Below the pieces are notes generated by a model, which worked only from the letters and a program-made list of their open reading frames with translations, ran no database searches and was not told the DNA's origin. DNA of 10,000 nt from NCBI GenBank assembly GCA_020216985.1, contig JAIWOH010000164.1, positions 1 to 10,000 of the forward strand, read 5' to 3'. The translations under genes were made by a program, and so were the position numbers. Every line of letters starts with the position of its first letter. Position 1 is the stretch's first letter. Below, piece after piece: positions 2,040 to 10,000 of this stretch. Origin of the DNA: Nitrospira sp. GTDB taxonomy: Bacteria; Nitrospirota; Nitrospiria; Nitrospirales; Nitrospiraceae.

Positions 2040-2930
2040 ATGACCATTACCGACTATCTTGAAGCCAAACGGATGGCCGTTGATCAATTTCTCGATCAAG
2101 TGACACCACCAGCCATCACGCCGCCGGCCACACTCCATGAGAGCATGCGCTATAGCCTCATGGCGGGCGGCAAACGGATCCGACCGATTTTGACCGTCGC
2201 CGCGGCCGAGGCGGTCGGCGGCGATGCGCCGGGGCTGATGGCCGTCGCCTGTTCGCTCGAATTGATCCATACCTACTCGCTCATCCACGACGACCTCCCG
2301 TCGATGGACAACGATGACTACCGGCGCGGCAAGCCGACGAACCATAAGGTCTATGGCGAGGCCATCGCGATTCTCACAGGCGACGCGCTGCTCACCATGG
2401 CCTTTGACTGGATCAGCCGTCCCGACCTCATGAAAGGCTGCGATCCGGCGAGGCAAGTACGGCTGATCCAAGAACTGGCCCATGGCGCCGGCCATCGGGG
2501 CATGGTGGGGGGGCAGGTCCTCGACATCCAAGCTGAAAACCAGGACATCGATCTACCGGCCTTGCAATCGATCCATAAACACAAGACCGGCATGTTGATC
2601 CGCGCGGCGGTCCGGATGGGGGCGATCGCCGCAGGGGCGACCGAGCGACAGTTGGACGATTTGACCGGCTACGCCGAGGACATCGGTCTGGCCTTTCAGA
2701 TCGCCGACGACGTGCTGAACGTGACCGGCACACGTGAAGAGCTGGGCAAAAATCCGAATACCGACGCGGAACGGGGGAAGAAAACCTACCCCACATTCTA
2801 CGGCGTGGATGGCGCAAGACGGTTGGCGGACGACTGTGTGGAACGGGCCATCGGGCGGCTTTCCTCCTTCGGACCCACCGCTGATCCGCTCCGCGAGATC
2901 GCCCGCTACATCACCGCACGAAAGCACTAG
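2040..2930 (+). CDS. ispA: Polyprenyl (farnesyl/geranylgeranyl) diphosphate synthase
   Basis: This 296-residue class I trans-prenyltransferase condenses isopentenyl diphosphate with allylic diphosphates to give C15 (possibly C20) precursors for hopanoids, carotenoids and quinone side chains. It acts in the cytoplasm. Seen in order: the GGKRIRP substrate-binding motif in the N-terminal third; the first aspartate-rich motif DDLPSMD at 84-90, preceded by HTYSLIH as in bacterial IspA; GDALL; GGQVLDI; the HKHKTG lysine motif; and the second aspartate-rich motif DDVLN at 223-227. In that last motif the usual final Asp is Asn227. Length and motif order match bacterial FPP synthases. ATG 2040 is chosen because GGAAGGGGG (2026-2034) lies 5 bases upstream and homology begins here. 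The frame stays open back to 1779, but that extension is low in family character. The usual Gram-negative neighbours xseB and dxs are absent; hpnA follows after 70 bases. C15 versus C20 cannot be decided from sequence. Confidence 0.94.
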   Translation: MTITDYLEAKRMAVDQFLDQVTPPAITPPATLHESMRYSLMAGGKRIRPILTVAAAEAVGGDAPGLMAVACSLELIHTYSLIHDDLPSMDNDDYRRGKPTNHKVYGEAIAILTGDALLTMAFDWISRPDLMKGCDPARQVRLIQELAHGAGHRGMVGGQVLDIQAENQDIDLPALQSIHKHKTGMLIRAAVRMGAIAAGATERQLDDLTGYAEDIGLAFQIADDVLNVTGTREELGKNPNTDAERGKKTYPTFYGVDGARRLADDCVERAIGRLSSFGPTADPLREIARYITARKH

Positions 2931-3000: not shown

Positions 3001-3984
3001 ATGAAAGTGCTCGTCACCGGTGCAACGGGATTCGTAGGGGGCGCGGTGGCTCGCGCGCTCGTGCGCGCCGGCTACGACGTCCGGGTGCTGACCAGACCCC
3101 ACGCCGACCTGAGCAATCTCAAGGGACTCACAGTCGAGCACGTTCTTGGCGACCTGCGTGATCCCCCCTCGCTCCGAACGGCGCTGAAGGGATGCCGGCA
3201 CCTCTATCACGTCGCGGCTCATTATGCACTGTGGGCCCAAGATCCCTCTATCTTTTATGAGGTCAATGTCACCGGCACGGTCAATCTGTTGGAAGCCGCG
3301 CGCGACGTCGGCACGGAACGGATCGTCTATTGCAGCACGATCGGGGCCATCGGCTTGCCTCCGGATGGAGGGCTGGGCACCGAGGAGACGCCCGTGTCGC
3401 TCTCGCAAATGGCGGGACATTACAAACGATCAAAGTATCTCGCCGAGCAGGAAGTCCTGTGCCTCGCCAAGGAGGGGCTGCCGGTCGTGATCGTCAATCC
3501 CAGCGCGCCGGTCGGGGAGGGCGACGTCAAACCGACTCCGACGGGGCAGATCATCGTCGATTTCATGAAGGGCCGCATGCCGGCCTACATCGAGACCGGC
3601 ATGAACATCGTGGACGTGGACGATGTGGCAGAGGGCCACCTGTTGGCCATGCAAAAGGGGCGAATCGGCGAACGGTACATCCTGGGAGGCAAGAATCTCC
3701 TGCTGCGCGAGGTGTTCGACATTCTGAGCGCCGTGACGGGTATAAAGGCTCCGTGGCTTAAGCTGCCGCGCCTGGCAGTCCTGCCCCTGGCCTATGTCAA
3801 TCATTGGATTGCCGACGTGACCGGCATCCCGCCGCGCATTCCGCTCGAAGGCGTCAAAATGGCCAAGTACAAAATGCACTATGACTGTTCCAAGGCGATT
3901 CGCGAACTCGGCATCCCCCAGACCCCTCCCGACGTTGCAATCGAAAAGGCCGTGCGATGGTTCAAAGCCCACGGCTACGTGTGA
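3001..3984 (+). CDS. hpnA: Hopanoid-associated sugar epimerase/dehydratase HpnA
   Basis: This 327-residue protein of the extended short-chain dehydrogenase family is predicted to be an NAD(P)-dependent sugar-nucleotide epimerase. Its natural substrate is not established; it is grouped with hopanoid genes because of conserved neighbourhood. The N-terminal GATGFVGG (about residues 7-14) is the Rossmann dinucleotide site. D50LRD and the NVTGTVNLLEAA helix follow. The catalytic set is CST at 111-113 with Y141-K-R-S-K145 (YxxxK). Features I associate with HpnA are GHYKRSK, VVIVNPSAPVG, KPTPTG, NIVDVDDVAEGHL and GERYILGG. Length is normal and the start is fixed by the dinucleotide motif beginning at residue 7. 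No clear ribosome binding site precedes it; a 13-bp palindrome sits there instead. It lies 70 bases after ispA and 141 bases before the CruF-like gene, consistent with an isoprenoid-lipid cluster. No squalene-hopene cyclase is in the window. Confidence 0.92.
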   Translation: MKVLVTGATGFVGGAVARALVRAGYDVRVLTRPHADLSNLKGLTVEHVLGDLRDPPSLRTALKGCRHLYHVAAHYALWAQDPSIFYEVNVTGTVNLLEAARDVGTERIVYCSTIGAIGLPPDGGLGTEETPVSLSQMAGHYKRSKYLAEQEVLCLAKEGLPVVIVNPSAPVGEGDVKPTPTGQIIVDFMKGRMPAYIETGMNIVDVDDVAEGHLLAMQKGRIGERYILGGKNLLLREVFDILSAVTGIKAPWLKLPRLAVLPLAYVNHWIADVTGIPPRIPLEGVKMAKYKMHYDCSKAIRELGIPQTPPDVAIEKAVRWFKAHGYV

Positions 3985-4125: not shown

Positions 4126-4962
4126 ATGGACTTCATTATCCTGTTCCTCAAGACGGTAGCCTTCCGGCCCTACGTGTTTGTCTTCTTGGCGGCCTTTCTC
4201 TATGCCGGCACACAACTGATCGGCTGGAACCGTACCTGGCGCTTTTGGCTCATCAGTTGGTTCACGGCCTTCGTTTGCGAATACTCCTCGACGCGCACGG
4301 GCATCCCTTTCGGCTGGTATTTTTACAATGGGTCCACCGTGGGGCAGGAACTGTACATCGCGGACGTGCCGTTCATGGACTCCATTTCGTTCAGTTTTCT
4401 CCTTTACGCCGCCTACTGCGTGGCGCTATGCCTCCTGTCACCCCATAAGGGATCTTCATCGCTTGGGCGGTTCAGGTTGAAACAACTCCGCTTGACCGGC
4501 GACGAGCGCACCGCCCTGCCCGCGCTCGCCTTAACCGTCTTTCTGTTTATGTTCATCGACATGGTGATCGATCCGGTCGCGCTGCGCGGCGACCGGTGGT
4601 TTCTCGGCAAGATTTACTATTATCCCGATCCCGGTGTTCACTTCGGCGTGCCGTTCGCCAACTATGTCGGCTGGGCGGTCGTCGGAACCCTGTCCCTCGC
4701 CGTCTATGTTCCGCTTGAACGTCGATTGCCGCCGCTTGACCCTTCCGACTTGCCGACTTCCCGCCTGCTCTTGGGGGTTGGACTCTATTATGGCGTTCTG
4801 TTCTTCAACTTGGGTGTCACCTTCTGGATCGGCGAATGGTTCATGGGGACAAGCGGCTTGCTGATGCACCTGCCGATTCTGGGGCTCTTGATCCATCGGG
4901 TCGTGGAATTTCCCTCCCCATTCTCTTCTTCCTATCGCAGCAACGTCCCGGTGAAAAACTGA
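4126..4962 (+). CDS. cruF: CruF-like carotenoid biosynthesis membrane protein (carotenoid hydratase family)
   Basis: This 278-residue integral membrane protein of the Caroten_synth/DUF422 type includes carotenoid 1,2-hydratase CruF and bisanhydrobacterioruberin hydratase. These enzymes add water to the psi-end double bond of linear or monocyclic carotenoids. Family-like features seen: an N-terminal helix, E-Y-x-S-x-x-x-G-I-P-F-G-W-Y-x-Y near residues 49-63, VPFMDSISFSFLLYAAY, MVIDPVALRG, YYYPDPGVHFGVPFANYVGW around 164-184, and a late pair of hydrophobic helices. About seven membrane segments can be counted, and length is typical. The ATG is chosen because the first hydrophobic helix begins directly after it; the ribosome binding site is weak. 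No phytoene synthase, desaturase, cyclase or CruG glycosyltransferase lies in the window, so the actual carotenoid is unknown. Its stop codon is the first base triplet of a 16-bp palindrome. Family assignment is fairly sure; the precise reaction is less so. Confidence 0.8.
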   Translation: MDFIILFLKTVAFRPYVFVFLAAFLYAGTQLIGWNRTWRFWLISWFTAFVCEYSSTRTGIPFGWYFYNGSTVGQELYIADVPFMDSISFSFLLYAAYCVALCLLSPHKGSSSLGRFRLKQLRLTGDERTALPALALTVFLFMFIDMVIDPVALRGDRWFLGKIYYYPDPGVHFGVPFANYVGWAVVGTLSLAVYVPLERRLPPLDPSDLPTSRLLLGVGLYYGVLFFNLGVTFWIGEWFMGTSGLLMHLPILGLLIHRVVEFPSPFSSSYRSNVPVKN

Positions 4963-4975: not shown

Positions 4976-5001
4976 CAGTCAGACACGATTCTCTGTATGA
5001 T
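4972..5001 (+). promoter_or_regulatory. Candidate promoter for the exported-protein gene
   Basis: TTCACA (4972-4977) and TATGAT (4996-5001), each 5/6 of consensus, are 18 bases apart. Transcription would begin near 5008. That is downstream of the first ATG codons (4997, 5000) and at ATG 5009, which would make the message leaderless if this promoter is used. Confidence 0.35.
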
Positions 5002-5389
5002 GGAATCGATGGGATATGCTCGGCAAAAGAGAAGTCGTGAAAGAGCCGTGGCGGCAGGCCTGTGGGCCCTGCTGGCGCTGTGGTGCGTTGCTGCATTGTG
5101 GGGGGATCTTCCGGCGGTTCATGCGGCCGACAAGCCGGTCCAACATGTCGTCGGCACCGTCGCGGCCATCGACCAGAAACGCCTCGTCGTTACGACGTTC
5201 AAGGGCCAAACCATCTCGATCAAACTGACGAAACAGGTGCGATACAAGGATAAGACGAACCCGCAATCCAATCGCCCGCCCGCCGTCGGCGACCGAGTGA
5301 TCGTGGAGGCCGTTCGAGACAAGAAAATCCTGACCGCCGTCACCGTCCACTATTCGCCCACGAGTCAACCGGCCGAACCATCCGACTAG
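4997..5389 (+). CDS. Small exported protein with a DUF5666-like beta domain
   Basis: This protein of up to 130 residues is probably periplasmic. Residues 1-43 form a signal peptide: basic n-region (RQKRSRER), hydrophobic AVAAGLWALLALWCVAALW core, and a likely cleavage after AVHA (about residue 43). The mature part is an approximately 85-residue small beta-rich domain with the pattern VVGTVAAIDQKRLVVTT, then ISIKLTKQVRY, then VGDRVIVEAV. This is the strand-turn rhythm of OB-like/DUF5666-type domains, which often occur in exported proteins of unknown role. No catalytic residues or lipobox are apparent. The start is uncertain: ATG 4997, 5000 and 5009 are all in frame, none has a good ribosome binding site, and a promoter candidate would favour 5009 (126 residues). 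CGATTC/GAATCG (4986-5008) could place the first ATGs in a hairpin loop. It lies 34 bases after cruF and 27 before the holin-like gene. Confidence 0.75.
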   Translation: MMESMGYARQKRSRERAVAAGLWALLALWCVAALWGDLPAVHAADKPVQHVVGTVAAIDQKRLVVTTFKGQTISIKLTKQVRYKDKTNPQSNRPPAVGDRVIVEAVRDKKILTAVTVHYSPTSQPAEPSD

Positions 5390-5416
5390 CCGACCGGCCC
5401 TGACAGGCTCTTGACA

Positions 5417-5875
5417 ATGTCAACCATTCGCTTCTTCCACTTCTCCCACAAGTCATCCCGGCAAGGCGGATTACGCGCCACCATCGCTCGTGTCCTGATC
5501 ACGGGCGTGGCGGTGTTTCTGGCCGTGGCGACCGTCCCCGGCCTGGAAGCCGACAGCCTGACGGCAGGCATTGCGGCCGTCCTCGTCTTGACCATTCTCA
5601 ACCTGATTCTTCGGCCGATTCTCCTGCTGATCACCCTGCCGCTAATCGTATTCACCCTTGGGCTCTTTCTGGTCGTGCTGAACGCTCTCCTGTTGGAGCT
5701 GACGGCTTACCTGGTAAAGGGCTTTACAGTGTCGGGATTCTGGTCGGCGGTCGGCGGGGCGCTTGTCATCAGTCTCGTCACGACCGTGCTCACCGGTTTG
5801 ACCGTTGACCGTCGTCCACCGCCGACCTTTCCGGACGAGCCCCGCCGCCCTCCTAAGATCATTAATCCTGAGTAG
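5417..5875 (+). CDS. Phage holin family 4 (YvlD/DUF360-like) four-helix membrane protein
   Basis: This 152-residue inner-membrane protein resembles the 'mycobacterial 4 TMS phage holin, superfamily IV' family (PF04020), which is widespread in chromosomes and mostly not phage-derived. Four hydrophobic segments are visible: ARVLITGVAVFLAVATVPG, LTAGIAAVLVLTILNLIL, PILLLITLPLIVFTLGLFLVVLNALLLELTAYLV, and FWSAVGGALVISLVTTVLTGL. The family-like motif ILNLILRPILLLITLPLIVFTLGLF is well preserved. The C-terminal tail (residues about 130-152) is rich in proline and charged residues. A TTG at 5411 is also in frame, but ATG 5417 with AGG about 11 bases upstream is preferred. A probable terminator follows 26 bases after the stop. 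Its role is unknown; a membrane-integrity or envelope-stress role is speculation from the family. The name should not be read as evidence of a prophage. Confidence 0.85.
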   Translation: MSTIRFFHFSHKSSRQGGLRATIARVLITGVAVFLAVATVPGLEADSLTAGIAAVLVLTILNLILRPILLLITLPLIVFTLGLFLVVLNALLLELTAYLVKGFTVSGFWSAVGGALVISLVTTVLTGLTVDRRPPPTFPDEPRRPPKIINPE

Positions 5876-6042: not shown

Positions 6043-6129
6043 ACAACCTCCTTGGCTCTCGTGCCGCTCGGGAGAGCACTGAATAGACCAAAGCATGTCC
6101 ATCCCATCGCGTTCACACACCCATTCGGC

Positions 6130-7128
6130 ATGATGACCGTACTCCTCTGGACGATCGCGGTATTGACGGTCCTTCTTCTGATCGGGCTGGCTCTGTACCT
6201 GCTCTTTCCCCGCAAGTATCAATCCGCGGAGTCCGTGGCCACATCCTATGACGACTGGACGAACGACGGCATCCTCGAGTTTTACTGGGGCGAACACATC
6301 CACCTGGGGCACTATGGCTCTCCGCCCCGCAAGAAAGATTTTCGCCAAGCCAAGGCCGACTTCGTCCATGAAATGGTCCGATGGGGCGGGCTGGACAAGC
6401 TGCCTCCCGGCACGACGCTGTTGGATGTGGGCTGCGGCATCGGAGGCAGCAGTCGTATCCTCGCGCGGGAGTACGGCTTTGCCGTCACCGGCATCACCTT
6501 GAGCCCCCAGCAAGTCAGGCGAGCCCGAGAACTGACCCCCCCGGAGGTGACTGCGCGATTTCAGATCGATGATGCGCTGGCGCTTTCGTTCCCCGATGCC
6601 AGTTTTGACGTGGTCTGGTCGGTCGAGGCAGGCCCCCACATGCCGGATAAGGCCCGCTTTGCCAGGGAACTCTTGCGCGTGCTGAAACCGGGCGGCATTC
6701 TGGTCGTCGCCGATTGGAATCAGCGGGACGATCGCCGGGTTCCGCTCAATTTTTGGGAACGGCCGGTGATGCGACAACTGCTCGATCAGTGGGCTCATCC
6801 GGCCTTCTCCAGCATTGAAGGGTTCTCGGAATTGCTGGAGGCAACGGGACTGGTGGCGGGCCGCGTCACCACGGCGGATTGGACCGCCGAAACCATACCC
6901 TCCTGGCTTGATTCCATTTGGCAAGGGGTTGTCCGTCCTGAAGGGATCGTTCGGTTCGGCCTGATCGGCGTGATCAAATCCTTACGAGAAGTGCCGACCT
7001 TTCTGTTGATGCGACTGGCCTTTGGAACCGGGCTCTGCCGCTTCGGGATGTTTCGGGCGGTACGGGCCGATGTCCCGACAAGCCGAGTCCTGTCCACACA
7101 GACGGAAGAACGGCTTGTCCGATCGTGA
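6130..7128 (+). CDS. MPBQ/MSBQ-type benzoquinol methyltransferase (plastoquinone/tocopherol pathway homologue)
   Basis: This 332-residue SAM-dependent class I methyltransferase has an N-terminal membrane anchor (residues about 2-25, a hydrophobic run ending LLFPRKYQS). It closely resembles, as I remember them, the cyanobacterial Sll0418 / plant VTE3 enzymes that methylate 2-methyl-6-phytyl- or solanesyl-benzoquinol. Shared-looking features in order are YDDWTNDGILEFYWGEHIHLGHYG; motif I LLDVGCGIGGSSRIL with Asp99 and GCGIG 101-105; VTGITLSPQQ; FDVVWSVEAGPHMPDK; LKPGGILVVADWNQRDDR; NFWERPVMRQLLDQW; and a C-terminal EVPTFLLMRLAFGTGLCRFGMFRAV. The last resembles the membrane-associating tail of that subfamily, extended here by about 20 residues. 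The frame is open back to TTG 6052, but ATG 6130 directly precedes the anchor; no strong ribosome binding site is seen. In a non-phototroph the likely product is a plastoquinone-like quinone. The family assignment is firm; the exact substrate is inference. Confidence 0.92.
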   Translation: MMTVLLWTIAVLTVLLLIGLALYLLFPRKYQSAESVATSYDDWTNDGILEFYWGEHIHLGHYGSPPRKKDFRQAKADFVHEMVRWGGLDKLPPGTTLLDVGCGIGGSSRILAREYGFAVTGITLSPQQVRRARELTPPEVTARFQIDDALALSFPDASFDVVWSVEAGPHMPDKARFARELLRVLKPGGILVVADWNQRDDRRVPLNFWERPVMRQLLDQWAHPAFSSIEGFSELLEATGLVAGRVTTADWTAETIPSWLDSIWQGVVRPEGIVRFGLIGVIKSLREVPTFLLMRLAFGTGLCRFGMFRAVRADVPTSRVLSTQTEERLVRS

Positions 7129-7143: not shown

Positions 7144-7380
7144 TCACCGCCATCGCCGGACGGTGTCGCACATGGTCTTCAGCGACGCCTGCCCCCATTG
7201 GACAAGACAGGCCCGACACAAACGCCCATCATCCGGGGCGTCACAACCGATGGTGTTTCGTCGATTCGGCGAAATGGACAGGTCGAAACACCAACAATCG
7301 CCCCTCCCGGCGGCCAATCCACAGCCGTTGGGTCGCCAGCACAGGGGACAAACGGAGAAATCACGCGAGTCGGCGCTCAT
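7144..7380 (-). CDS. Cysteine-rich CWC family protein
   Basis: This 78-residue small cytoplasmic protein has nine cysteines: 11, 14, 20, 29, 31, 46, 55, 58 and 71. The pattern CPLCWRPNGC, then GDCWCFD (the C-W-C signature at 29-31), then CRACL matches the Cys_rich_CWC family, whose members are short and of unknown function. Paired CxxC motifs at 11-14 and 55-58 plus CWC suggest one or two bound zinc ions or an iron-sulfur site; that is inference. ATG 7380 overlaps the metE stop as ATGA, so the two genes are likely translationally coupled, with GAGG inside the metE end as a possible ribosome binding site. The frame extends upstream inside metE, but the overlap start fits the family length. The stop lies 15 bases from the convergent methyltransferase stop. 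Confidence 0.85.
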   Translation of the reverse strand: MSADSRDFSVCPLCWRPNGCGLAAGRGDCWCFDLSISPNRRNTIGCDAPDDGRLCRACLVQWGQASLKTMCDTVRRWR

Positions 7381-9686
7381 GATCTCGCCTCGGCCAGTTG
7401 ACGGCGGACGTGCCGCGCCGCCTCCACCATATTGGTCAGCGCCGCCTCGACCTCCGGCCAGCCTCTGGTCTTGAGTCCGCAATCGGGGTTCACCCACAGT
7501 CGCTCCACCGGCACGACACGGCCCGCTCGGAGCAGGAGGTCCGCCATTTCTTCCTCGGCCGGCACCCGAGGCGAATGGATGTCATAGACGCCGGGACCGA
7601 TCTCATTCGGATACTGAAAGCGCGCGAAGTCTCTCAGCAGCTCCATCTTTGAGCGGGAGGTCTCGATTGAGATGACGTCGGCATCCAGCTCCGCGATCGC
7701 ACCCAGGATATCGCCGAACTCCGAATAACACATGTGGGTATGGATCTGAGTCTCATCCCGAACTCCGGCCGTGGCCAGCCTGAACGATTCCACCGCCCAG
7801 CGAAGATAGGCCTCCCATTGCCGGCGGCGGAGGGGAAGCCCCTCTCGGAGCGCCGGTTCATCGACCTGGATCATCGCAATACCGGCCCGCTCCAGATCGA
7901 GCACCTCGTCGCGAAGCGCCAGGGCGATCTGCCGGCAGGTCTCCTCACGCGGTTGGTCGTCCCTCACAAACGACCATTGAAGCATCGTGACCGGCCCTGT
8001 AAGCATCCCCTTGACCGGTCGAGGCGTGAGCGACTGCGCATAGACGGCCCAGTCCACCGTCATGGGGCGCGGCCGCGCGACGTCACCGACGATCACGGGA
8101 GGTTTCACGCAACGGGACCCGTAACTCTGCACCCACCCCTGTTCGGTGAAGATGAACCCGTCCAATTGCTCACCAAAGTATTCCACCATGTCGGTGCGCT
8201 CGAACTCGCCGTGCACCAACACATCAAGCCCGATCGCCTCCTGTCGTTGCACGCACTGGCGGATCTCCCCTTTGAGAAACGCCTCATACTCCGCCGTCGC
8301 CATCCGCCCGGCCCGCCAGGCGGCTCTGGCGGCTCGCACGGGTTCGGTCTGGGGAAACGACCCGATCGTCGTCGTGGGCAGCAGAGGAAGGTGAACGCGA
8401 GCTTTTTGTTTCGCGGCGCGAACCGGATAGGGTGAGCGCCGCCGCATCATCGAGTCGGTCACCACCTTCAATCGATCCCGCACCGTGGGATTTCTGACCA
8501 GAGGGGATGTGGCCCGCTCCATCTTCACCCTGCGGGATTCCTCAAAGAGGGGCCCGGCCGGGCTGGCCAATTCGGCTGCATCGGCCAAGGCCCGCAGCTC
8601 GGCCAGTTTTTGCTCCGCAAACGCAAGCCAGCTTCGGACCCCTTGATCCATCTTCGTCTCGTGACGGGCATCCACCGGCACATGGAGCAACGAACAGGAG
8701 GACGCTACCAATACCCGATCCGATCCCAACGCCATGGCCGCGCGACGGACCACCGCATGGGCGGCATCAAGATCGGCTCGCCAGACATTCCGGCCGTCGA
8801 TCACCCCCAGGGACAGACTCATCGCCGGAGGCAACGCGGCCAAGACCTGATCCAACTGTTCCGGCGCCCGCACGAGATCAACGTGCAAGGCCTCGCAGCC
8901 GGATTCCACGGCAAGCGAGAGATTGTCTTCCAAGGCCCCAAAATAGGTCGTGAGCATCAGCTCGGGACGGTCGCTGTTTCCCGTTAGTTTGACTAACGCT
9001 CGGCGATAGGCTTCTTTCTTCTCCTGGTCGAGATCCAACACCAGGCCTGGTTCATCAAGCTGCGCCCGGCTCACCCCCCTTCTCGCCAGTTCGTGAAACA
9101 GCTCTTGGTACACCGGCAACAGCCGATCGAGTAATTGTAAGGGGCTTGTGTCCTTGTCTCGACCTTCCATCTTCGACAAGAGCAGAAAGGTCACAGGCCC
9201 GAGGACCACCGGCCGAGGTTCGATACCAAGAGCACGGGCCTCGCTCAGCTCCGTGAGCAGTTTCGACCCATCAAGGGAAAACTGCTGGGTCCGCTCCAGT
9301 TCCGGCACAAGGTAGTGGTAGTTGGTATCGAACCACTTGGTCATCTCCAAGGCCGGTACGTCGATGCCGGCCTGCCGATCCTGGAGCCCGCGCGCCATGG
9401 CGAAGTAGCGGGTCAAAGGATCGGCAATACTCCGGTACCGTGACGGCACGGCGCCGATGGTCACGGCCATGTCCAATACATGGTCGTAGAGCGAAAAATC
9501 GCCGATCGGGACCAGATCAAGACCGGCCGCTTTCATCACAGACCAATGACGCCATCTCAACTCAGCAGCGGTCCGGTGCAGTTCGTCCGCCGTCAGCCGA
9601 CCGGACCAAAATGCTTCAAGCGCTTTCTTGAGCTCGCGGGACGCACCGATCCTGGGATAGCCAAGACACGTGGCAAGAACCGACAT
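7377..9686 (-). CDS. metE: Cobalamin-independent methionine synthase
   Basis: This 769-residue protein, 5-methyltetrahydropteroyltriglutamate-homocysteine S-methyltransferase, transfers the methyl group of methyl-folate to homocysteine in the last step of methionine synthesis, without vitamin B12. It is cytoplasmic. The N-terminal barrel begins with the family-like GYPRIGASRELKKALE. The C-terminal catalytic barrel begins near TTTIGSFPQT (438-447). All four zinc ligands are visible: His651 and Cys653 (HMC), Glu675 (ISIE) and Cys736 (NPDCGLKTR). Each is ten residues beyond its E. coli counterpart, so the enzyme looks intact and full length. ATG 9686 is chosen for the AAGGAG site 8 bases upstream and for family alignment. 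It lies 71 bases downstream of nrdB and overlaps the CWC gene by 4 bases. No cobalamin, SAM or other riboswitch fits the short leader. Confidence 0.98.
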   Translation of the reverse strand: MSVLATCLGYPRIGASRELKKALEAFWSGRLTADELHRTAAELRWRHWSVMKAAGLDLVPIGDFSLYDHVLDMAVTIGAVPSRYRSIADPLTRYFAMARGLQDRQAGIDVPALEMTKWFDTNYHYLVPELERTQQFSLDGSKLLTELSEARALGIEPRPVVLGPVTFLLLSKMEGRDKDTSPLQLLDRLLPVYQELFHELARRGVSRAQLDEPGLVLDLDQEKKEAYRRALVKLTGNSDRPELMLTTYFGALEDNLSLAVESGCEALHVDLVRAPEQLDQVLAALPPAMSLSLGVIDGRNVWRADLDAAHAVVRRAAMALGSDRVLVASSCSLLHVPVDARHETKMDQGVRSWLAFAEQKLAELRALADAAELASPAGPLFEESRRVKMERATSPLVRNPTVRDRLKVVTDSMMRRRSPYPVRAAKQKARVHLPLLPTTTIGSFPQTEPVRAARAAWRAGRMATAEYEAFLKGEIRQCVQRQEAIGLDVLVHGEFERTDMVEYFGEQLDGFIFTEQGWVQSYGSRCVKPPVIVGDVARPRPMTVDWAVYAQSLTPRPVKGMLTGPVTMLQWSFVRDDQPREETCRQIALALRDEVLDLERAGIAMIQVDEPALREGLPLRRRQWEAYLRWAVESFRLATAGVRDETQIHTHMCYSEFGDILGAIAELDADVISIETSRSKMELLRDFARFQYPNEIGPGVYDIHSPRVPAEEEMADLLLRAGRVVPVERLWVNPDCGLKTRGWPEVEAALTNMVEAARHVRRQLAEARS

Positions 9687-9757: not shown

Positions 9758-10000
9758 TCAGAACGTTTCGTCGAGGGCGACCTCCCCCGTCACCCCCACT
9801 TGATAGGCAGAGACCCGTCGCTCGAAGAAATTGGCGAGTTCCTGCACGTCTTGCAGGTCCATGAAGGGGAATGGATTCCTCGACCCGAATCGCTTCCGGA
9901 AGCCGAATGCCGCCAGCCGTTGATCGGCGACACACTCCAGATAGTGCCTCATGTCGCGCAGGGAGAGGCCGGCGATCCCTTCGCCCAGCAGATCCTCCGC
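9758..10000 (-). CDS. nrdB: Ribonucleoside-diphosphate reductase, beta (R2) subunit, C-terminal end
   Basis: Only the last 80 residues are inside the window; the gene continues beyond 10000. The small subunit of class I ribonucleotide reductase holds the metal-radical cofactor and passes the radical to the alpha subunit to make deoxyribonucleotides. The visible part has features of the R2 C-terminus: a conserved helix RHYLECVADQRLAAFGF, then the FGSRNPFPFMDL motif (commonly NPFPWM), then FFERRVSAYQVG. It ends with a flexible acidic tail terminating in phenylalanine, which in this family docks on the alpha subunit. The metal ligands and radical tyrosine lie in the missing part, so Ia/Ib/Ic type cannot be judged. 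The stop (9758-9760) is 71 bases before the metE start on the same strand. Confidence 0.9.
   Translation of the reverse strand, partial: AEDLLGEGIAGLSLRDMRHYLECVADQRLAAFGFRKRFGSRNPFPFMDLQDVQELANFFERRVSAYQVGVTGEVALDETF

Follow-up and report, generated by a model that had tools for sequence, protein, structure and literature searches.

The closest described counterpart of the enzyme considered in this study is the MPBQ/MSBQ methyltransferase of cyanobacteria, which in Synechocystis we take to be Sll0418. According to a review, the orthologue in Synechocystis methylates quinones and tocopherols, plant VTE3/APG1 is highly divergent from it and orthologues of the Synechocystis enzyme are absent from land plants (PMC5159609). 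A second cyanobacterial protein, Slr0320, is known from a Synechocystis mutant with slow electron transfer from QA to QB; the authors of that report state that quinone methylation cannot be excluded and needs proof (PMC8065906). Within the genus Nitrospira, methyl-plastoquinones (mPQ), whose rings are methylated at positions 3, 5 and 6, are the sole quinones of N. inopinata and N. moscoviensis (PMC12324825), and the proteins of the mPQ pathway have been named MpqA to MpqE (PMC13386864).

Against this background we propose, with a probability of roughly 0.72, that mPQ ring methylation in some Nitrospira is carried out by a transferred cyanobacterial-type enzyme, which would be a B12-free substitute for a B12-binding radical SAM protein encoded next to mpqE and related to cyanobacterial Slr0320 (hereafter RSMT), and that RSMT was then lost in several lineages. 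The proposal starts from observations on the enzyme family, the pathway marker of the host, the distribution of the genes, the repeated loss of RSMT with its scars and the isozymes independent of B12, together with cobalamin riboswitches, that accompany the methyltransferase.

The stretch of DNA analysed in this study (the window, 10,000 nucleotides) belongs to a genome of 2.26 Mb that is 87% complete (G000) and that its nearest relatives place in the Nitrospira family. On its forward strand lies an intact open frame of 332 amino acids that runs from ATG 6130 to a stop at 7126–7128; an upstream TTG at 6052 is a possible alternative start, and the aligned homologues begin at or beside the MM of 6130. 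The features of the window are as follows.

2040..2930, + strand: farnesyl diphosphate synthase-type prenyl synthase, a neighbour on the methyltransferase's strand
3001..3984, + strand: HpnA hopanoid-associated sugar epimerase (468.6 bits versus a cut-off of 367.65)
4126..4962, + strand: CruF-like carotenoid-synthesis membrane protein (PF04240; below the NCBIfam CruF cut-offs)
4997..5389, + strand: DUF5666 protein, a neighbour
5411..5875, + strand: PF04020 membrane protein, a neighbour
6130..7128, + strand: predicted cyanobacterial-type MPBQ/MSBQ (2-methyl-6-prenyl-benzoquinol) C-methyltransferase, 332 aa, with an N-terminal membrane helix and a class I SAM-methyltransferase domain
7377..9686, − strand: MetE, B12-independent methionine synthase, in convergent orientation to the methyltransferase gene
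9758..10000, − strand: C-terminal end of NrdB (small subunit of the B12-independent class I ribonucleotide reductase), truncated where the window ends; its 80 residues share 96% identity with the NrdB of locus L056

The methyltransferase gene thus faces metE, with nrdB behind it on the strand of metE and the nrdB stop 71 bases before the metE start. This nrdB–metE–methyltransferase order is also present in L056, L057, L058 and L163, and the NrdB of L057 matches PF00268. Elsewhere in the window, the protein encoded at 766–1686 (− strand) weakly resembles HalA, the effector of the anti-phage system Hailong, scoring 22 bits versus a cut-off of 250.

An earlier, sequence-only reading had taken the gene product for the plastoquinone/tocopherol ring methyltransferase of cyanobacteria and plants. 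All five motifs that it quoted are present in the translation of 6130–7128, and the membrane anchor that it noticed corresponds to hydrophobic residues 1–25 and to a helix predicted at 2–25 in an AlphaFold2 model of fair quality (mean pLDDT 79.6), in which a class I SAM-methyltransferase domain, with the motif DVGCGIGG in its core, lies behind the anchor. The nearest solved folds to this model are AtmM, MitM, RebM and a sarcosine/dimethylglycine-type enzyme, at 20–28% identity. The 120 best database matches, with E values from 1e-214 to 7.6e-179, lie far beyond chance; by local alignment they include proteins of N. inopinata (96% identity), N. japonica (88%) and Ca. N. kreftii (85%), while named cyanobacteria, at 78–85%, follow the Nitrospira matches or mix in with them. 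Many of these 120 matches carry the JGI name MPBQ/MSBQ methyltransferase, and two Nitrospira matches are named 2-methyl-6-phytyl-1,4-hydroquinone methyltransferase by NCBI; no Synechocystis-named record is among the 120 best matches listed, whether the query is the window protein or that of Cyanothece sp. BG0011. Across a 15-row alignment the other rows are 77–96% identical to the window protein, with the nine cyanobacterial rows at 77–84%. Judged by its sequence, the window gene product is a cyanobacterial-type MPBQ/MSBQ methyltransferase, so the cyanobacterial half of the earlier assignment holds, whereas the plant half does not agree with the divergence of the plant enzyme described in PMC5159609.

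By the same kind of comparison it is not a UbiE: the UbiE model TIGR01934 gives 42 bits against a cut-off of 158.35, the other UbiE models listed score lower, against cut-offs of at least 158, and the MpqE model is not among the 25 of 33 families listed for the protein. Of the broader models, Pfam PF01209 does match above its threshold (29.6 versus 20.1), and a profile match to the MpqE of the same genome spans the SAM core only.

That MpqE is itself the marker of mPQ synthesis in the host (NF052510, 409 bits versus a curated cut-off of 335). Together with what PMC12324825 reports on the quinones of N. inopinata and N. moscoviensis, it bears out the statement, in the sequence-only reading, that Nitrospirota have been reported to make mPQ. 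The search for partner genes gave a mixed outcome: the genome holds a single UbiA match, of the 4-hydroxybenzoate type (TIGR01474, 277.1 bits versus 275.45), and no match to a UbiD-type decarboxylase was found in what is an 87% complete assembly.

Sampling 395 genomes from the phylum, we found close homologues of the methyltransferase confined to the window's own family, with five genomes outside it yielding matches of 32–46% identity. Within the Nitrospiraceae the methyltransferase occurs in 45 of 175 genomes (E 1e-34 or better, fragments included) and has no close homologue in the other 130, incomplete ones included, while MpqE exceeds its cut-off in 157 and RSMT is present in 156 (E 1e-30 or better, fragments included). 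N. japonica is G149 and Ca. N. kreftii G147 in our numbering, and the genome of N. inopinata was not recognised among the 175. Two genomes, G411 and G055, presumably N. moscoviensis and N. defluvii, respectively, are without the methyltransferase and have RSMT. If G411 is indeed N. moscoviensis, the methyltransferase is not required for mPQ in general. It is not general to mPQ makers, an observation that is new here. The earlier suggestion of a natural candidate for one ring methylation of the mPQ pathway is thus matched by the host, with its MpqE and UbiA, and is not supported for a general pathway enzyme, given the 130 genomes without a close homologue.

Two other candidates were set aside. 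One, considered as a general ring enzyme, is a second methyltransferase type of ~280–385 aa, 40–47% identical over the SAM core and present in many family genomes; its copy in G411 lies ~0.9 Mb or more from ubiA/mpqE, and the membrane anchor is apparently missing. The other is a UbiE paralogue on contig C92, which by our reading adjoins an acyl-ligase-like gene.

RSMT, a protein of ~545 aa, is encoded on the same strand as mpqE and 8–471 bases behind it in all ten methyltransferase-lacking genomes whose mpqE locus was taken, and likewise behind mpqE in four genomes that carry both RSMT and the methyltransferase. It contains a radical SAM domain; its match to the B12-binding Pfam model falls just under the cut-off (31.6 versus 32.1), and a B12-binding domain appears among the precomputed domains of its relatives. 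The best family model is that of Slr0320 (NF045585, 446.4 bits versus a cut-off of 775), a score that makes RSMT a relative and not a member of the Slr0320 family. Its AlphaFold2 model is poor (mean pLDDT 45.6). Among other neighbours of mpqE in 19 fetched loci are a NirJ2-like radical SAM/SPASM protein (16 of 19) and a Usp-PCP_red protein of ~700 aa (15 of 19), both noted at L177:2355–5866, and in N. defluvii both of these have PF08369 motifs known from protochlorophyllide reductase.

Of the 175 genomes of the family, 19 lack RSMT and one has a broken copy, and the methyltransferase is present in 12 of these 20 compared with 33 of the 155 with RSMT (Fisher p 0.0006, kinship ignored). Four lineages or more combine the presence of the methyltransferase with an RSMT that is deleted, scarred or stop-ridden. 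The scar in G189 keeps 459 codons with five stops, and N. japonica retains clear remnants of RSMT residues 1–13 and 502–534 only. Remnants 18–38 and 463–551 flank a methyltransferase–monooxygenase cassette in G248, and beside such a cassette in G050 residues 519–547 are left. In G438 and G436, a C-terminal RSMT remnant adjoins the methyltransferase, and mpqE is gone from the locus; no MpqE was found at E 1e-40 in either genome (83% and 70% complete, respectively), and these two may make their quinone without the MpqE methyl. Their methyltransferase genes lie between uvrA and the Usp/PCP_red gene (L202 and L203). G290 has the methyltransferase adjoining mpqE and no RSMT trace, and in the host genome and G324 the scar amounts to 12 codons at most (E 0.034 in the host genome). 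The methyltransferase is mostly encoded apart from mpqE, coming within 3 kb of it in G290, G050 and G248.

On a tree of 25 chosen genomes, which was built from mpqE and a neighbour and so is not an independent species tree, RSMT changes state at least five times. G218, where one island holds the methyltransferase as well as an intact RSMT, is placed by this tree within the clade of the window, which otherwise lacks RSMT, so that either RSMT was lost more than once in that clade or the tree is wrong; unless the tree is in error, G218 fits a gain of the methyltransferase before the loss of RSMT. Both proteins are kept in 33 of 175 genomes, and replacement is therefore not obligatory. Neither is found in eight, five of which are also without MpqE at E 1e-40. 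Among the genomes with neither, the contig of G262 ends inside metE on the side expected for the methyltransferase, mpqE of G453 lies at a contig end, and G330, whose mpqE locus is cleanly without RSMT, is an unexplained case. Three methyltransferase-lacking genomes counted as having RSMT, namely G282 and G165 with one internal stop each and G312 with three RSMT matches, may have a damaged RSMT too.

Taken by itself, the patchy occurrence of the methyltransferase, with 45 of 175 genomes carrying it and 33 of these keeping RSMT, would also suit an acquired extra enzyme with another role, in lipid antioxidant quinols or in carotenoid or hopanoid modification, the loss of RSMT being coincidental. 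The gene surroundings lend this some support, as the window gene comes after those for FPP synthase, HpnA and the CruF-like protein, and in 14 of 33 loci the gene immediately downstream encodes a glutathione peroxidase (161 aa, PF00255), a hint of a link to lipid peroxides (L062, L066, L068, L069, L071–L074, L076–L078, L082, L086 and L101). We nevertheless consider such a role improbable, because the methyltransferase accompanies RSMT remnants at the mpqE locus (G248, G050) and at the former mpqE locus (G438/G436) and is the direct neighbour of mpqE in G290; its contexts vary by lineage, yet RSMT loss recurs, and the Synechocystis orthologue acts on quinones and tocopherols (PMC5159609).

The monooxygenase of the cassettes calls for separate comment. 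It is a UbiH/UbiF-type FAD monooxygenase that travels with the methyltransferase (L065, L061, L159, L160, L189 and L190), its copies being 80–97% identical in six genomes of three genera, compared with 57–68%, or 70–82% in three genera, for the other homologues listed in the family; both kinds occur in G189 and G290. It is a candidate ring hydroxylase, although its Ubi-OHase score of 128.6 bits stays below the cut-off of 224.65. A homologue is present in 155 of 175 genomes, and none was found in the host genome, which is incomplete. RSMT might then be an oxygen-independent, BchE-like ring hydroxylase for which this monooxygenase was substituted, with the methyltransferase a passenger. The two genes do adjoin each other in G050, G248, N. 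japonica, G189 and G208, and RSMT is weakly similar to BchE (41.5 bits). We give this idea little credence all the same, as homologues of the monooxygenase and RSMT, in 155 and 156 of 175 genomes, mostly co-occur, the window's clade and G438/G436 have lost RSMT with no monooxygenase near the methyltransferase in the fetched stretches, and the top family match of RSMT, Slr0320, is followed by other B12 radical SAM families.

Substitution of the B12-binding RSMT by a B12-free methyltransferase also agrees with what surrounds the latter. B12-independent isozymes (MetE, NrdAB) lie near it in the window's clade and in four other lineages; counted by locus, MetE or NrdA is nearby in 8 of 33, and additionally in G290. 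A close MetE is found in 11 of 175 genomes, nine of them without intact RSMT and ten with the methyltransferase; a twelfth MetE match, in G402, is 40% identical over part of its length. Cobalamin riboswitches (90–125 bits) stand before nrdAB or metE in L056, L057, L058, L061/L194 (one locus), L159, L160 and L188, which are all seven of the searched loci that reach that far (five of seven and three of six sources in the respective searches). None was found before nrdAB or metE in the window and L163, both of which end before the operon start, and none in L189, L190 and L084. A search of the window plus 12 other sources, which represent 11 distinct loci, likewise found none that precedes the methyltransferase on the strand of that gene. 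In N. japonica the methyltransferase sits between a riboswitch–metE unit and a unit of riboswitch, TonB receptor and cobalamin adenosyltransferase, and in G050 a MetE fragment of 57 residues lies between the monooxygenase and the methyltransferase. Besides those before nrdAB or metE, two cobalamin riboswitches lie in such loci, one at L159:9893–10065 before a TonB receptor and cobalamin adenosyltransferase, the other at L160:4153–4358, where the gene that follows would encode a 2OG-Fe(II) oxygenase of 250 aa. In L194 (G208), where nrdAB and a riboswitch are also present, metE is split in two and one more piece of it lies close to the methyltransferase. A general loss of B12 use is not supported, as MetH is present in 167 of 175 genomes (E 1e-60), from which it follows that B12 is spared, not lost; MetE, class I NrdAB and the methyltransferase would all be B12-free stand-ins.

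As to origin, the median identity between Nitrospira and cyanobacterial sequences (80.0%) equals that within cyanobacteria (80.0%; 35 versus 53 sequences, the former including one record labelled Nitrosospira and the latter drawn from the best 80 of 374 matches and not a random sample). The Nitrospira sequences form one side of a branch with a support of 96/93 in an unrooted tree; rooting with distant Nitrospirota homologues failed, with outgroup branches of ~10 changes per column. A single transfer from cyanobacteria into Nitrospira is the simplest reading that fits these sequences, its direction being one that we infer, as the tree is unrooted. Of the two origins that the sequence-only reading had offered, transfer from cyanobacteria fits the family-limited distribution and the equal medians better than does an ancient shared quinone pathway. 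Vertical inheritance of such a pathway, with many losses in Nitrospirota, would be compatible with the one Nitrospira clan and with a gene composition that matches the neighbours' (GC 0.609, GC3 0.720), but we judge it very unlikely, because close homologues are limited to one family of the phylum sample, an identity at the within-cyanobacteria level is too high for a divergence at the root of two phyla and the gene neighbourhoods differ between lineages. In the cross-genus pair G050/G248, the monooxygenase (96.7% identity) and methyltransferase (92.6%) exceed MpqE (75.0%) and UvrA (89.6%), which points to movement of the first two within the family.

Returning to the transferred enzyme as a substitute for RSMT, we envisage a membrane-anchored, SAM-dependent enzyme, which would methylate the prenylated benzoquinol ring during mPQ synthesis. 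Position 5 or position 6, the two of the PQ type, would be the most likely target. MpqE, of the UbiE type, would add the methyl next to the prenyl chain, a role that is itself inferred from UbiE chemistry. The methyltransferase gene would have entered Nitrospira once from cyanobacteria and then spread patchily. RSMT, if the two proteins are equivalent, would perform the same ring step with cobalamin chemistry, and in several lineages, the window's included, the cobalamin-free substitute would have made RSMT dispensable, whereupon it was lost. If a methyltransferase stands in for RSMT, then RSMT itself should be a C-methyltransferase of the quinone ring, and Slr0320 may be one as well. Following from this, we see an even chance for a wider proposal, in which RSMT and Slr0320 are cobalamin-dependent benzoquinone-ring C-methyltransferases, for mPQ and plastoquinone, respectively, and the MPBQ methyltransferase is their cobalamin-free analogue, exchanged several times in Nitrospira within a B12-independence island with MetE/NrdAB and thereby freeing quinone synthesis from B12.

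In many ecosystems the oxidation of nitrite and the complete oxidation of ammonia are driven by Nitrospira, and the first report of their quinone dates from 2025; the mPQ pathway is the subject of Elling et al. 2025, as cited in PMC12324825 and PMC13386864. If our reading is true, one ring methylation is served by two unrelated enzymes, which makes the high-potential quinone pathway of Nitrospira a mosaic, and vitamin B12 supply is tied to respiratory quinone synthesis in nitrifiers. It would also provide a testable function for the conserved radical SAM protein beside mpqE and for cyanobacterial Slr0320, and would explain the slow QA-to-QB transfer of the slr0320 mutant. In the literature covered (titles and abstract openings, with subscription papers mostly outside coverage), we found no work that joins the facts on the methyltransferase, mPQ, RSMT and B12.

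Set beside the known systems, the window protein most resembles the cyanobacterial MPBQ/MSBQ methyltransferase, with which it shares near-full-length identity (77–84% to nine orthologues), the anchor, the length and the database names; it differs in its host, a non-phototroph that makes mPQ, and its ring substrate would differ in methylation. Plant VTE3/APG1 catalyses the same reaction in plants and is reported to be highly divergent and of other origin (PMC5159609). MpqE, UbiE and Coq5 are likewise SAM-dependent quinone-ring C-methyltransferases with a similar SAM-binding core, but the window enzyme belongs to another family, and its host genome encodes a separate MpqE. MetE and NrdAB under cobalamin riboswitches represent a similar principle, in which an enzyme that needs B12 is replaced by one that does not, and are physically near the methyltransferase, which differs from them in having no riboswitch on its strand in the loci searched. 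Slr0320-type B12-binding radical SAM proteins, tied to plastoquinone use in Synechocystis by mutant phenotype (PMC8065906), are unrelated to the methyltransferase in fold and chemistry, and it is their Nitrospira relative that holds the place beside mpqE which in some lineages the methyltransferase has taken.
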